Source of the DNA: Halosimplex halophilum
Lineage (GTDB): Archaea; Halobacteriota; Halobacteria; Halobacteriales; Haloarculaceae
Assembly (NCBI RefSeq): GCF_004698125.1
Contig: NZ_ML214298.1
Span: 372,001-436,000 of the forward strand
Length of the DNA: 64,000 bases
Direction: 5' to 3'
Shown: positions 32,960 through 36,800 of the stretch, piece after piece
Numbering within the stretch: the first letter of the stretch is position 1
How the letters are laid out: the number at the start of each line of letters is the position of its first letter
The notes under the pieces: generated by a model
Databases searched by the model: none
The model's input: the letters and a program-made list of their open reading frames with translations, nothing else
What the model was told of the DNA's origin: nothing
Position numbers and translations under genes: made by a program

Positions 32960-33150
32960 GCGGCACCGTCCCGAGCCGCCCGTCCCACCGGATCTCGTCG
33001 GGCCCGCGAGCGCCGAACAGCCGCGACGCGCGGCGCTGGCCGTGTTCGTCCCCGACAGCGCGGGTCGCCGCCCGAATCACCCGACCGGCCGTCCGGACCC
33101 GAAGGGATTCGCCGACGGGGTATTACGGCTGGTCCGAAAACGTTCAGGGG

Positions 33151-34287
33151 ATGGGACCAGCACTCGACCTGCGCGAGTATCCGGACGAGGAGTCCCGACA
33201 GGTGCTGTTCGACGAACTGGCGGCGGTAGACGTCGGCGAGTCCGTCGCGGTGGTGGCCGACCGGGACGTCGACGCCGGCCTGGTGCGGTACCAGATCGAA
33301 CGCGACCGGCGGCTGGCGTGGACCTACGCCGACCCGGACGCCGAACCGAGGGAGCTCGAGGTGACCAAGGGGGAGCCGCTGGACGGCGACCGCGGGGCGA
33401 TCGACGTTCGCGACCTGAAGCCCCAGCGGCGCCACGAGGCGCTGCTGTCGATCTTCGACGAGCTCGGGGCCGGCGAGGGGTTCGTCCTCGTCAACGACCA
33501 CGACCCCAAGCCGCTGTATCACGAGCTCCGGTCGGCCCACGGCGACATCGTCGACTGGGAGTACCGGAGCCGCGGGGACGACGGGTGGCGCGTCGAGATC
33601 GTCAAGACGGACGAGTCGACGGCCGACACCGGAGACGTCGTCACCCGATACGACGTGCGGGAGATCCCCAAGGCGGAGCGACACCCGACGATCCACCACC
33701 GCTACGGGATGATCCCCGAGGGCGGGACGATGGAGCTGGTCGCCCCGCACGAACCGCGGCCGCTCCACCGGGAGTTCCGCGAGCGCTACGGCGACTCGTT
33801 CGACTGGGAGGTCGTCGAGTCGGAGCCGGGAAAGTGTCGCGTCCACATCACGAAGGGCGACGACGCCGGAGGGGACGCCGAGCCGGGCGGCGGGGACGCG
33901 GCGGCGACCGGCGCGGAACCCGACGACGCGGTCAAGGTCGTCGAGGAGCTGGACGTGCGGGACCGGCCGCCGGCGCAGCGACACGAGGCCATCTTCGAGG
34001 CGTACGCCGACCTGGAGGCCGGCGAGGGGTTCGTCCTGGTCAACGACCACGACCCGAAACCGCTGTACCACCAGTTCGAGGCCGAGGCGGGGCCACAGTT
34101 CCGGTGGGAGTACCGGCAGAAAGAGCCCGGCGAGTTCAGGGTGCTGGTCGGCAAGGCCGACGCCGCCGAGCGGGACCACAGCCACGGCCACGACCACGGA
34201 CACGGCCACGATCATAGCCACGGCCACGACCACGGCGGCGCCGCCGACCACGGCGCGGCCGACGAGACGCCCGACGCGCCGTTCTGA
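33151..34287 (+). CDS. four-repeat DUF2249 protein with His-rich tail
   Basis: A 378-residue protein built of four DUF2249 modules, at about residues 4-73, 83-153, 164-236 and 264-345. Repeats 2 and 4 share the identical EGFVLVNDHDPKPLYH. Repeat 3 keeps PHEPRPLHREF. Repeat 1 (ADRDVDAGLVRYQIE) has lost the conserved His. A tail at 352-372 is a run of His-Gly-Asp units (HSHGHDHGHGHDHSHGHDHG), a likely metal-binding sequence. DUF2249 proteins are linked to denitrification and nitric-oxide metabolism. The RIC/ScdA-type gene follows 26 bases later on the same strand, so they are probably one operon. Confidence 0.88.
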   Translation: MGPALDLREYPDEESRQVLFDELAAVDVGESVAVVADRDVDAGLVRYQIERDRRLAWTYADPDAEPRELEVTKGEPLDGDRGAIDVRDLKPQRRHEALLSIFDELGAGEGFVLVNDHDPKPLYHELRSAHGDIVDWEYRSRGDDGWRVEIVKTDESTADTGDVVTRYDVREIPKAERHPTIHHRYGMIPEGGTMELVAPHEPRPLHREFRERYGDSFDWEVVESEPGKCRVHITKGDDAGGDAEPGGGDAAATGAEPDDAVKVVEELDVRDRPPAQRHEAIFEAYADLEAGEGFVLVNDHDPKPLYHQFEAEAGPQFRWEYRQKEPGEFRVLVGKADAAERDHSHGHDHGHGHDHSHGHDHGGAADHGAADETPDAPF

Positions 34288-34313: not shown

Positions 34314-35030
34314 ATGACCGACATCGACCCCGACCGCACGCTCGCATCGCTCGTCGAGGAGACGCCCGCCTACGCCCGGGCGTTCGAGTCGCTGGGGCTC
34401 GACTACTGCTGTGAGGGCGACCGGACGCTGGCGACGGCCTGCGACCAGGCGGACCTGGCCGTCGACGACGTTCGCGCGCGGCTGCGGGAGACCCGCGACC
34501 GCGAGGACGCCGACGCGGACGACTGGGAGGGGCTCGCCGACCTGGCTGACCACGTCGTCGAAACCCACCACGACTACCTCCGCGAGGAACTGCCCGCGCT
34601 CCAGGACCTGGTCGCGAAGGTCGCCCGGGTCCACGGCGAGAACCACCCCGAACTCCGCGAACTCGAGGCGGAGTTCTCCGAGCTCGCCGAGGAGATGCGC
34701 GAGCACATCGAGGAGGAGGAGACCGAACTGTTTCCCGTCGTCGGCAAGCTCGACCGCGGGGAGTCGCCGTCCACCGACGAGGCCGCCCGGCTCCGCGAGG
34801 CGATCCGGACGTTCGAGGACGACCACGCCGCGACGGCCGACCGCCTCGACCGGATCGCCGAGCTGACCGACGGCTACGCGGTCCCCGGGGACGCCTGCGC
34901 GAGCTACCGGAGCATGCTCGACCGGCTCGACCGCCTCGAACGCGACACCCACATGCACGTCCACAGGGAGAACAACGTGCTGTTCCCGCGCGCGGAGGAA
35001 CGGCTTCCGACCGGACCGGCCGAGGCCTGA
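34314..35030 (+). CDS. RIC/ScdA-type hemerythrin-like di-iron protein
   Basis: A 238-residue protein with the ScdA N-terminal domain (FESLGLDYCCEGDRTLATAC; Cys32, Cys33 and Cys43) followed by a hemerythrin-like four-helix bundle. The bundle's iron ligands are visible in VVETHHDYLREELPAL, VHGENH, MREHIEEEETELFP, DDHAATADR and THMHVHRENNVLFP. Bacterial members (RIC, YtfE) repair iron-sulfur centres damaged by nitric oxide or oxidants, probably by delivering iron. Pairing with the DUF2249 protein upstream strengthens a role in nitrosative or redox stress. No nitrite or nitric-oxide reductase is present in the window. Confidence 0.92.
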   Translation: MTDIDPDRTLASLVEETPAYARAFESLGLDYCCEGDRTLATACDQADLAVDDVRARLRETRDREDADADDWEGLADLADHVVETHHDYLREELPALQDLVAKVARVHGENHPELRELEAEFSELAEEMREHIEEEETELFPVVGKLDRGESPSTDEAARLREAIRTFEDDHAATADRLDRIAELTDGYAVPGDACASYRSMLDRLDRLERDTHMHVHRENNVLFPRAEERLPTGPAEA

Positions 35031-35059: not shown

Positions 35060-35932
35060 TCAGCCGCGGCGGACACTCGCGACCACGAGGCCGGTCAGGA
35101 CGGTCAGCACGGCGACCTTGAACGCGACGAGGTGGCCGATTCGCGACCCGAGCAGGGCGGGGACGGAGAGCCCGAGCAGCCGGTCGGTCTGGTAGGCGCC
35201 GGTCGCCAGGACGACCGGGACGACGGCCGGCAGGTGGCGGCGAAACCGGCGCGCCTGCGCCTTCAGCACGGGACCGAGACCGGGACTGGCGCGGACCGTC
35301 GGGAGGACGACGAAGTTGTGCCAGACCGCCCCGCCCAGCCACAGCGAGACGGCCCCGAGGTGGCCGAGTCTGACCGCCCACGCGATAGCCGTCGTCCCCG
35401 TCTCGATCCACGCGAGCGCGCCGAGCGCGACCGCGACTGCGAGGAGCGCGAGCGACCGGAGCGCTCGCGCTCGACGGCGCGAGCGCTCGGCTGTGGCCCT
35501 GCGGCGTGCGAACCACAGCACCGGGACGCTGACGCACCCGACGCCGAGCGCGACGGCCGCGAACCCGGCCGCGCCCCCGCGCTGGTCGAGGACGAGATAG
35601 CCGGCCCCGGAGAGGGCGAACGCCCAGACGGCGACGGCCTCGACGCGGGCCCAGCGGCGCTCGACCGCACGGCGGTCGGTCGACTCGTCGAACGCCTCGG
35701 GGTCGAAGAGCGCGACGCGCCAGTAGAGACCACCGGCGAGAGCGCCGACGGCCACCACCGTCGCCCACGTCACCGCTCGCGCCGGGACGGAAGCCCCGAG
35801 GTTCGAGAGCCAGACGCCGGCGAGCGACGCGCCCAGCAACAGCGCGAGGACGACTCTCGGCCGGACCCGCCTGACCTGGACGTCCCGCCCGAGCAGCGAT
35901 ATCTCGGGACCGCCCTCCGCTTCGATTCCCAT
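35060..35932 (-). CDS. CopD-like multi-pass membrane protein
   Basis: A 290-residue protein with about eight transmembrane helices. The second half resembles the CopD (copper export/import) domain: IAWAVRLGHLGAVSLWLGGA followed by VWHNFVVLPTV, with conserved His in helices, and the final GSRIGHLVAFKVAVLTVLTG. CopD proteins transport or handle copper, and relatives occur in cytochrome and denitrification gene clusters. Its ATG at 35932 is 12 bases from a dyad operator (35944-35959) that it shares with a divergent DtxR-like regulator. Confidence 0.75.
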   Translation of the reverse strand: MGIEAEGGPEISLLGRDVQVRRVRPRVVLALLLGASLAGVWLSNLGASVPARAVTWATVVAVGALAGGLYWRVALFDPEAFDESTDRRAVERRWARVEAVAVWAFALSGAGYLVLDQRGGAAGFAAVALGVGCVSVPVLWFARRRATAERSRRRARALRSLALLAVAVALGALAWIETGTTAIAWAVRLGHLGAVSLWLGGAVWHNFVVLPTVRASPGLGPVLKAQARRFRRHLPAVVPVVLATGAYQTDRLLGLSVPALLGSRIGHLVAFKVAVLTVLTGLVVASVRRG

Positions 35933-35943
35933 CGTGCCTCTGT

Positions 35944-35959
35944 TTTAGGTGGCCCTAAA
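35944..35959. promoter_or_regulatory. DtxR/IdeR-like dyad operator
   Basis: TTTAGG, four bases, CCTAAA: a perfect 6-bp dyad similar in form to the TTAGG-N-CCTAA operators of iron-dependent DtxR/IdeR/SirR repressors. It lies between the CopD-like gene (start 35932) and the DtxR-like gene (start 36051), overlapping the likely core promoter of the former. Confidence 0.6.
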
Positions 35960-36050
35960 CTAAACGGTGTGGACGGAGATGTTCGGCCGGATCGGCCGAG
36001 CGAAGGGGTTCGGGACTGTCCTTTCGGAGACGGCGGATCGATCGTGAAAC

Positions 36051-36515
36051 ATGTCATCGGAACCCCGGTCGGGGCCGTCCCCGTCAGTCGGGTCGTCGCT
36101 GTCGGCGGTCGAGCGGCGCGAGGCGCGCTACCTGTTCGCCGTCTCGCTGTACGCGGAGGCCGACGAGCGGGTCACGACCGGCGACCTCGGGGACCACCTG
36201 GACGTGGCCGCGGCCAGCGTCACGGAGATGGTGTCGAAACTCGACGAGCGCGGCCTCGTCGACTACGAGAAGTACCGGGGCGTCCGGCTGACCGACCGCG
36301 GCGAGACCGTCGCGGCGCGGGCGGGCTGGCGCTACTGCGTCGTCTCGACCTTTTTCGACTCGGTGCTGGAGACGACGCTGGACGAGGGGACCGCGTTCGA
36401 CATCGGGTTCGCCCTCCCTGACGACGGCGTCCACCGCCTCCGGGCGCTCGTCGACTCGGCGTGTCTGGGGCTCTGCCCGGACGCCGGCGGCGACGGCGAA
36501 CCCTGTGGGGCCTGA
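36051..36515 (+). CDS. DtxR-family-like regulator with altered metal site and four Cys
   Basis: A 154-residue protein with a DtxR-type winged helix (residues about 22-82: TTGDLGDHLDVAAASVTEMV, then LVDYEKYRGVRLTDRGE) and the start of the dimerisation helix. Where DtxR/MntR proteins have RRHRLLE-like metal ligands, this one reads WRYCVVSTFF, so the usual His is Tyr95 and the usual Glu is Ser99. Cysteines appear at 96, 138, 142 and 152, the last three in a short tail (ACLGLCPDAGGDGEPCG). It may bind an iron-sulfur cluster or another thiophilic metal instead of Fe2+/Mn2+. The divergent operator at 35944-35959 suggests control of the CopD-like gene and itself. Confidence 0.8.
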   Translation: MSSEPRSGPSPSVGSSLSAVERREARYLFAVSLYAEADERVTTGDLGDHLDVAAASVTEMVSKLDERGLVDYEKYRGVRLTDRGETVAARAGWRYCVVSTFFDSVLETTLDEGTAFDIGFALPDDGVHRLRALVDSACLGLCPDAGGDGEPCGA

Positions 36516-36548: not shown

Positions 36549-36800
36549 CTACGGCGATTCGACCGTGACGAAGTACGGGCCGTCCCAGTCGTTCACCCAG
36601 TCCGGCGCGTCCGGATGGGCCTGAAGCAGGTTCGCCTCGTAGGACTCGTCTTCGAACACCTTCCCCGAAGAGTCGGTGGCCTCGTCCCGCGGAACCGTGA
36701 ACGTGACCGGGTCGCGCCCCTCGGTGGGGATCAGCTGTTTGCGCCCCCACTCGTGGGCTTCCCCCGCCGAATCGACCCACTCCTGGGGGTGAAATGTCAC
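36549..36800 (-). CDS. small conserved hypothetical protein
   Basis: An 83-residue acidic protein starting at GTG (36800), beginning TFHPQEWVDSAGEAHEWGRK and ending WVNDWDGPYFVTVESP. It is Trp-rich for its size, soluble and without motifs I recognise. Codon usage matches its neighbours and the acidic composition is typical of haloarchaeal cytoplasmic proteins, so I accept it as a gene. Confidence 0.6.
   Translation of the reverse strand: MTFHPQEWVDSAGEAHEWGRKQLIPTEGRDPVTFTVPRDEATDSSGKVFEDESYEANLLQAHPDAPDWVNDWDGPYFVTVESP

Follow-up and report, generated by a model that had tools for sequence, protein, structure and literature searches.

The question raised by this locus is what a DtxR-like regulator may sense once its metal ligands have gone, and which DNA it reads. 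In the window, by which we mean the whole stretch of 64,000 nucleotides of Halosimplex halophilum DNA that was analysed, the regulator gene is divergent from a gene for a CopD-like membrane protein, and the initial annotation had proposed that its product may sense an Fe-S cluster, NO or copper through cysteine. Upstream of the regulator gene lie a four-domain DUF2249 gene, a RIC-type gene and then the divergent CopD-like gene. The features of the locus are as follows.

33100 to 33111, plus strand: CGAAGGGATTCG box at -51 from the DUF2249 gene (motif match).
33151 to 34287, plus strand: protein with four DUF2249 domains (PF10006, E 8.3e-85, 4 stretches).
34314 to 35030, plus strand: RIC/ScdA/YtfE-type di-iron Fe-S cluster repair protein (TIGR03652, 226.8 bits, cut-off 204.7).
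35060 to 35932, minus strand: CopD-like membrane protein of 290 aa, divergent from the regulator (Pfam CopD 24.7 bits, below the cut-off of 32.1).
35944 to 35959, no strand assigned: TTTAGGTGGCCCTAAA, iron-type DtxR dyad at -27 to -12 from the CopD-like ATG (motif search).
35974 to 35985, minus strand: CGAACATCTCCG, one base off CGAA-N4-TTCG, at -53 from the CopD-like ATG (motif match).
36001 to 36012, plus strand: CGAAGGGGTTCG, denitrification-type box at -50 from the regulator ATG (motif match).
36051 to 36515, plus strand: Cys-type DtxR-like regulator of 154 aa (ORF, profile, homologue alignment, predicted structure), with the codons of C96 at 36336-36338, C138 at 36462-36464, C142 at 36474-36476 and C152 at 36504-36506.

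The regulator belongs to the DtxR/MntR superfamily by descent. Its N-terminal winged helix matched Fe_dep_repress in Pfam (PF01325, 7.7e-13, 48.9 bits against a cut-off of 26), and a profile search of the PDB returned MntR/DtxR. No Pfam match to the metal-binding and dimerisation C-terminal domain Fe_dep_repr_C or to the Rrf2 domain (PF02082) was obtained down to E 0.01, and no FeoA domain was detectable in Pfam. The model predicted from a three-sequence input reached a pLDDT of 81 (only 41 with two sequences) and was aligned with MntR over 124 residues (Z 16.1, rmsd 3.9, TM up to 0.67 on the query). The predicted fold matches the two-domain fold of MntR/DtxR; the tail of the model has a pLDDT below 50 from residue 144 onward.

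Tyr95, Cys96, Ser99, Cys138, Cys142 and Cys152 were all confirmed in the reading frame as first described. The alignment places Tyr95 and Ser99 in the columns of DtxR His79 and Glu83, where the iron-type paralogue reads HRLLE, and at the second Glu-His site the regulator reads FDIG as compared to LEHH in the iron-type paralogue of its own genome. The His/Glu metal ligands of DtxR repressors are absent from both sites of the regulator in this alignment.

Homologues were sought in 293 genomes of the order and ranked by whole-protein similarity, not by cysteines. Among 38 intact homologues from many haloarchaeal genera, selected with a pattern that requires Cys96, both Cys96 and Cys142 were present in all 38, an equivalent of Cys152 in 35 and Cys138 in 28 (missing in three and ten relatives, respectively). 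All intact top-ranked loci have Cys96, including two, L048 and L055, that the selection pattern had missed; roughly 40 in number, these loci also all have Cys142. Conservation in orthologues, on which the initial annotation had staked its reading of the cysteines, was therefore borne out. The cysteines, three to four in number, are arranged as C-x3-C-x(8-11)-C plus a distant Cys, and the three or more conserved cysteines are what would be expected of Fe-S regulators as a functional class. In these genomes the iron-type paralogues have retained HRLLE and LEHH and do not have the Cys set. The loss of metal ligands described at first was refined, in that the residues Tyr95 and Ser99 are not themselves conserved. 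Tyr95 was found only in the window regulator among the 38 homologues, the His column being filled by R, Q, F, L, V, H or Y, and Ser99 is the feature of a subclade, with Glu frequent in its column. On alignment, the conserved change is the loss of the His together with the Cys set.

Several homologues that do not have Cys138 bear extra N-terminal Cys (L056, L057, L065, L066, L077 and L079, e.g. RCGCERPRDC), possibly a ligand swap. An in-frame TAG occupies codon 40 of one orthologue (L014, L043, L009; Haloarcula amylolytica), indicating either a pseudogene or a sequencing error. No relative was found in the viral contigs searched.

A phylogenetic tree, with 99/96 support, set the Cys clade apart from the iron-type paralogue, the suf-linked paralogue and a third one. 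The denitrification-linked group is nested within the Cys clade, with weak support of its own (71/0). Judged by its sequence relatives, the window regulator is one of a separate, patchily distributed clade linked to denitrification. Other clades of the Cys family adjoin housekeeping genes and do not have the denitrification box, so NO is not the family-wide signal. Genes of these other Cys-type clades (L062, L064, L069, L072 and L063, L067, L068, L070, L073, L074, L081) either adjoin genes for riboflavin synthesis or belong to a conserved cluster that includes an acetyltransferase-like gene. No common dyad emerged from their upstream regions.

A second cysteine-bearing paralogue in the same genome (L173:5638-6069, G000:C1) and its counterparts have a Cys in the Cys96 column, a CPDC motif and a last Cys in the alignment. 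In the three genomes read, each from a different genus, it is the last gene after sufC-sufB-sufD and a ferritin-like gene; in its own genome SufB and SufD were assigned by Pfam, and SufC and the ferritin-like gene by eye. Similar paralogues, with C, CxxC and C aligned, are widespread in haloarchaea (L135, L137, L138 and L149-L152). This paralogue shares with the window regulator the Cys aligned with Cys96, the CxxC, the last Cys and the same N-terminal domain. It differs in having Glu at the Ser99 position, in passing Fe_dep_repr_C, in its place in a suf cluster and in the lack of a denitrification box, and in the tree it falls outside the window regulator's clade. Because the Cys positions align, the two proteins are likely to have inherited the Cys set in common, though this is not proven. 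IscR and SufR are encoded beside the assembly genes that they control, and the suf-linked paralogue is itself a candidate for a regulator that senses Fe-S. Its position in the suf cluster is the strongest hint that the Cys set serves Fe-S chemistry, and an Fe-S cluster is favoured for the window regulator because a paralogue with matching cysteines ends the suf cluster in the three genomes read.

Genes for DUF2249, RIC, CopD-like, HTH_10 activator, COX1-like and peroxiredoxin proteins recur near the homologues. The divergent CopD-like gene was found at six regulator loci, and many homologues have no CopD-like neighbour. On the other side of the regulator, at 36549-36800 on the minus strand, the window encodes a small uncharacterised protein (MTFHPQEWVDSAGEAHEWGRKQL...) whose relatives recur near the regulator in L046, L060 and L076. 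Truncated HTH_10 genes (L115, L116, L161) were observed in two genomes, G103 and G172; in G172 a truncated CopD-like gene lies beside the truncated HTH_10 gene and the Cys regulator was not detected. These truncations look like module decay.

The nirK gene was present in 26 of 28 carriers of the denitrification-type regulator as compared to 120 of 265 other genomes (Fisher p = 5e-7; within-genus permutation p = 1.5e-5), a comparison that is approximate, since some lower-ranking carriers are unclassified, e.g. L142 in G237, which is nirK-positive. Most nirK-positive genomes do not have this regulator gene, which indicates that it is not essential for denitrification.

The motif CGAA-N4-TTCG has been tied to haloarchaeal denitrification promoters (PMC5746218, PMC10062603), and the regulator promoter carries this box of the denitrification regulon. 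With gene calls in the relatives made by a composition heuristic, and start codons and leaderless transcription assumed, 20 of the 38 homologues had an exact box between -20 and -80 of the regulator gene, against 0.16 expected from first-order shuffles, and its position was nearly always -50 to -55. The box is also upstream of 14 of 21 DUF2249 genes, and the nirK gene of the same genome has CGAACATGTTCG upstream. As a private operator of the regulator the box was weakened as a candidate, in the same way as the dyad described below, by its occurrence where no Cys regulator was detected.

These results suggest, with moderate confidence, that the protein is of the Fe-S type, probably responds to NO and regulates denitrification and Fe-S repair. 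The Fe-S or NO role proposed initially is backed independently by the RIC and DUF2249 neighbours, the promoter box, the nirK association and the suf-linked paralogue. The fold, the conserved cysteines, the places of the boxes, the neighbouring genes and the link to nirK are shown here, whereas the cofactor, NO as the signal, the genes controlled and the direction of regulation are inferred. The protein descends from DtxR/MntR repressors and has kept their winged-helix and dimerisation fold, but would have exchanged the metal-ion site for a thiolate site, formed by Cys96 in the dimerisation helix and by Cys138, Cys142 and Cys152 where the last helix ends and along the C-terminal tail. Most likely an Fe-S cluster would sit in this site, probably a [4Fe-4S] cluster ligated by three or four of the cysteines, and nitrosylation or loss of the cluster would alter DNA binding. 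Because the regulator, DUF2249-RIC and CopD-like promoters have the box in common at about -50 (one base off in the CopD-like case), their products would be expected to be made together under denitrifying conditions. The regulator could then report NO or Fe-S damage and adjust the genes for denitrification accessory functions, NO defence and cluster repair.

The operator of the regulator is less clear. The TTTAGG-N4-CCTAAA dyad at 35944-35959 is the sole exact copy in the window; it overlaps the expected TATA/start region of the CopD-like gene and lies about 92 nt from the regulator start. Its genome has 14 exact copies, and 27 with at most one mismatch as compared to 2 for a reversed-pattern control. 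Genes flanking the dyads, assigned by eye, include two Dps genes, Fe-type transporters, a NifU-like gene, sufC and another DtxR paralogue, and the dyad is on these grounds the general iron-regulon operator of the genome. Seven orthologous CopD-like promoters have the one-off box element 27-28 nt ahead of the TTAGG dyad at fixed spacing, and the dyad is exact in six of the seven, against 0.00045 expected, a figure that, the sequences being related, shows no more than that composition by itself is not the cause. The dyad was also found upstream of HTH_10 genes and of a related CopD class in genomes where the Cys regulator was not detected. The HTH_10 activators fall into two groups: the promoters of one (L103-L117) have the dyad, and those of the other (L118-L132) are without it and mostly have boxes of the CGAACATGTTCG type.

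The iron-repressor-type dyad noted initially between the two genes is therefore real, conserved and beyond chance, but it need not be the regulator's site. Its spread over the iron regulon and over genomes with no detected Cys regulator weakened it as a private operator. Since it lies on the CopD-like promoter and is present where no Cys regulator was detected, the dyad is probably read by another DtxR protein of the genome, most simply one of the Idr/SirR/TroR type. The window regulator is a candidate reader, less likely than these other DtxR proteins. The window's CopD class was found intact only in the company of this regulator (8 of 8 intact cases), which makes cross-reading of the dyad conceivable.

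Such cross-reading leads to the alternative that survives best, although we consider it unlikely. The protein could be a further copy of the suf-linked Cys paralogue that responds in general to Fe-S or iron status and not to NO; by reading the iron dyad it would adjust the CopD-like and HTH_10 genes to the Fe-S or iron supply during denitrification. The paralogue does sit in a suf operon, the dyad precedes CopD-like genes that accompany this regulator in all eight intact cases, and it is also borne by the majority of the HTH_10 genes in the subfamily found together with the regulator. This reading is opposed by the dyads before HTH_10 and other CopD-like genes where the regulator was undetected, and by a recognition helix (ASVTEM) that differs from that of the iron-type paralogue (PTATSM).

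Less probable still is a thiol redox switch or structural Zn site that would sense oxidants or reactive nitrogen and sulfur species without an Fe-S cluster. Three to four cysteines in the C-x3-C-x(8-11)-C plus distant Cys arrangement would suit Zn or disulfide chemistry too, and peroxiredoxin genes recur in related loci, but the RIC, suf and DUF2249 associations indicate Fe-S and NO chemistry. A Cu(I) sensor that serves the copper enzymes of denitrification and controls the CopD-like gene is the least probable of all, for while nirK encodes a copper enzyme, the CopD-like gene is divergent at six loci and the regulator co-occurs with that CopD class, the CopD match is under the Pfam cut-off, many homologues have no CopD-like neighbour and the CopD-like promoter carries an operator of the iron-regulon type. 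The copper role proposed at first thus found nothing specific beyond a marginal CopD-like neighbour.

If the Fe-S and NO reading of the regulator holds, a DtxR-fold Fe-S sensor would show a metal-ion sensor rebuilt as a cluster sensor; no description of such a sensor was found in the open-licence literature searched. An unidentified NO/nitrite sensor has been inferred in haloarchaeal denitrification (PMC7188791), and it is an acknowledged gap (PMC7188791, PMC10062603). That a DtxR-fold clade turned its metal-ion site into an Fe-S site, and that this regulator is the missing haloarchaeal sensor or one of them, beside a suf-linked Fe-S-type DtxR, is a tentative proposal that we put below the Fe-S reading itself. 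Since the regulator is conserved, its promoter box fixed and its neighbours clear, it makes the sensor question open to experiment.

The regulator resembles MntR (2hyg), DR2539 (8pw0), DtxR and IdeR in its winged helix, its dimerisation helices and the DtxR-type dyad nearby. It differs from MntR, DtxR and IdeR in having a conserved Cys set and neither the first-site His/Glu nor the second-site Glu-His. The haloarchaeal iron regulators Idr, SirR and TroR are of the same superfamily and occur in the same organisms, and the separate, patchy distribution and denitrification link of its clade distinguish the window regulator from them. NsrR and IscR, of the Rrf2 family, and SufR are small regulators with a winged helix and an Fe-S cluster, and their genes accompany those for Fe-S or NO functions; they offer a working model, yet they belong to different protein families. 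The NarO system is similar in that the box, or its one-off form, stands before the regulator, DUF2249-RIC and CopD-like genes alike, but NarO is a bacterio-opsin activator-type protein and the window regulator is DtxR-like. ArnR of corynebacteria is a winged-helix, NO-sensing [4Fe-4S] protein that controls nar and hmp (PMC12343034). Like the window regulator, it has three conserved cysteines on the C-terminal side and a tie to nitrate respiration and NO, but it is bacterial and its HTH is described as reminiscent of the MarR type (PMC12343034). ArnR is a working precedent, apparently from another family.
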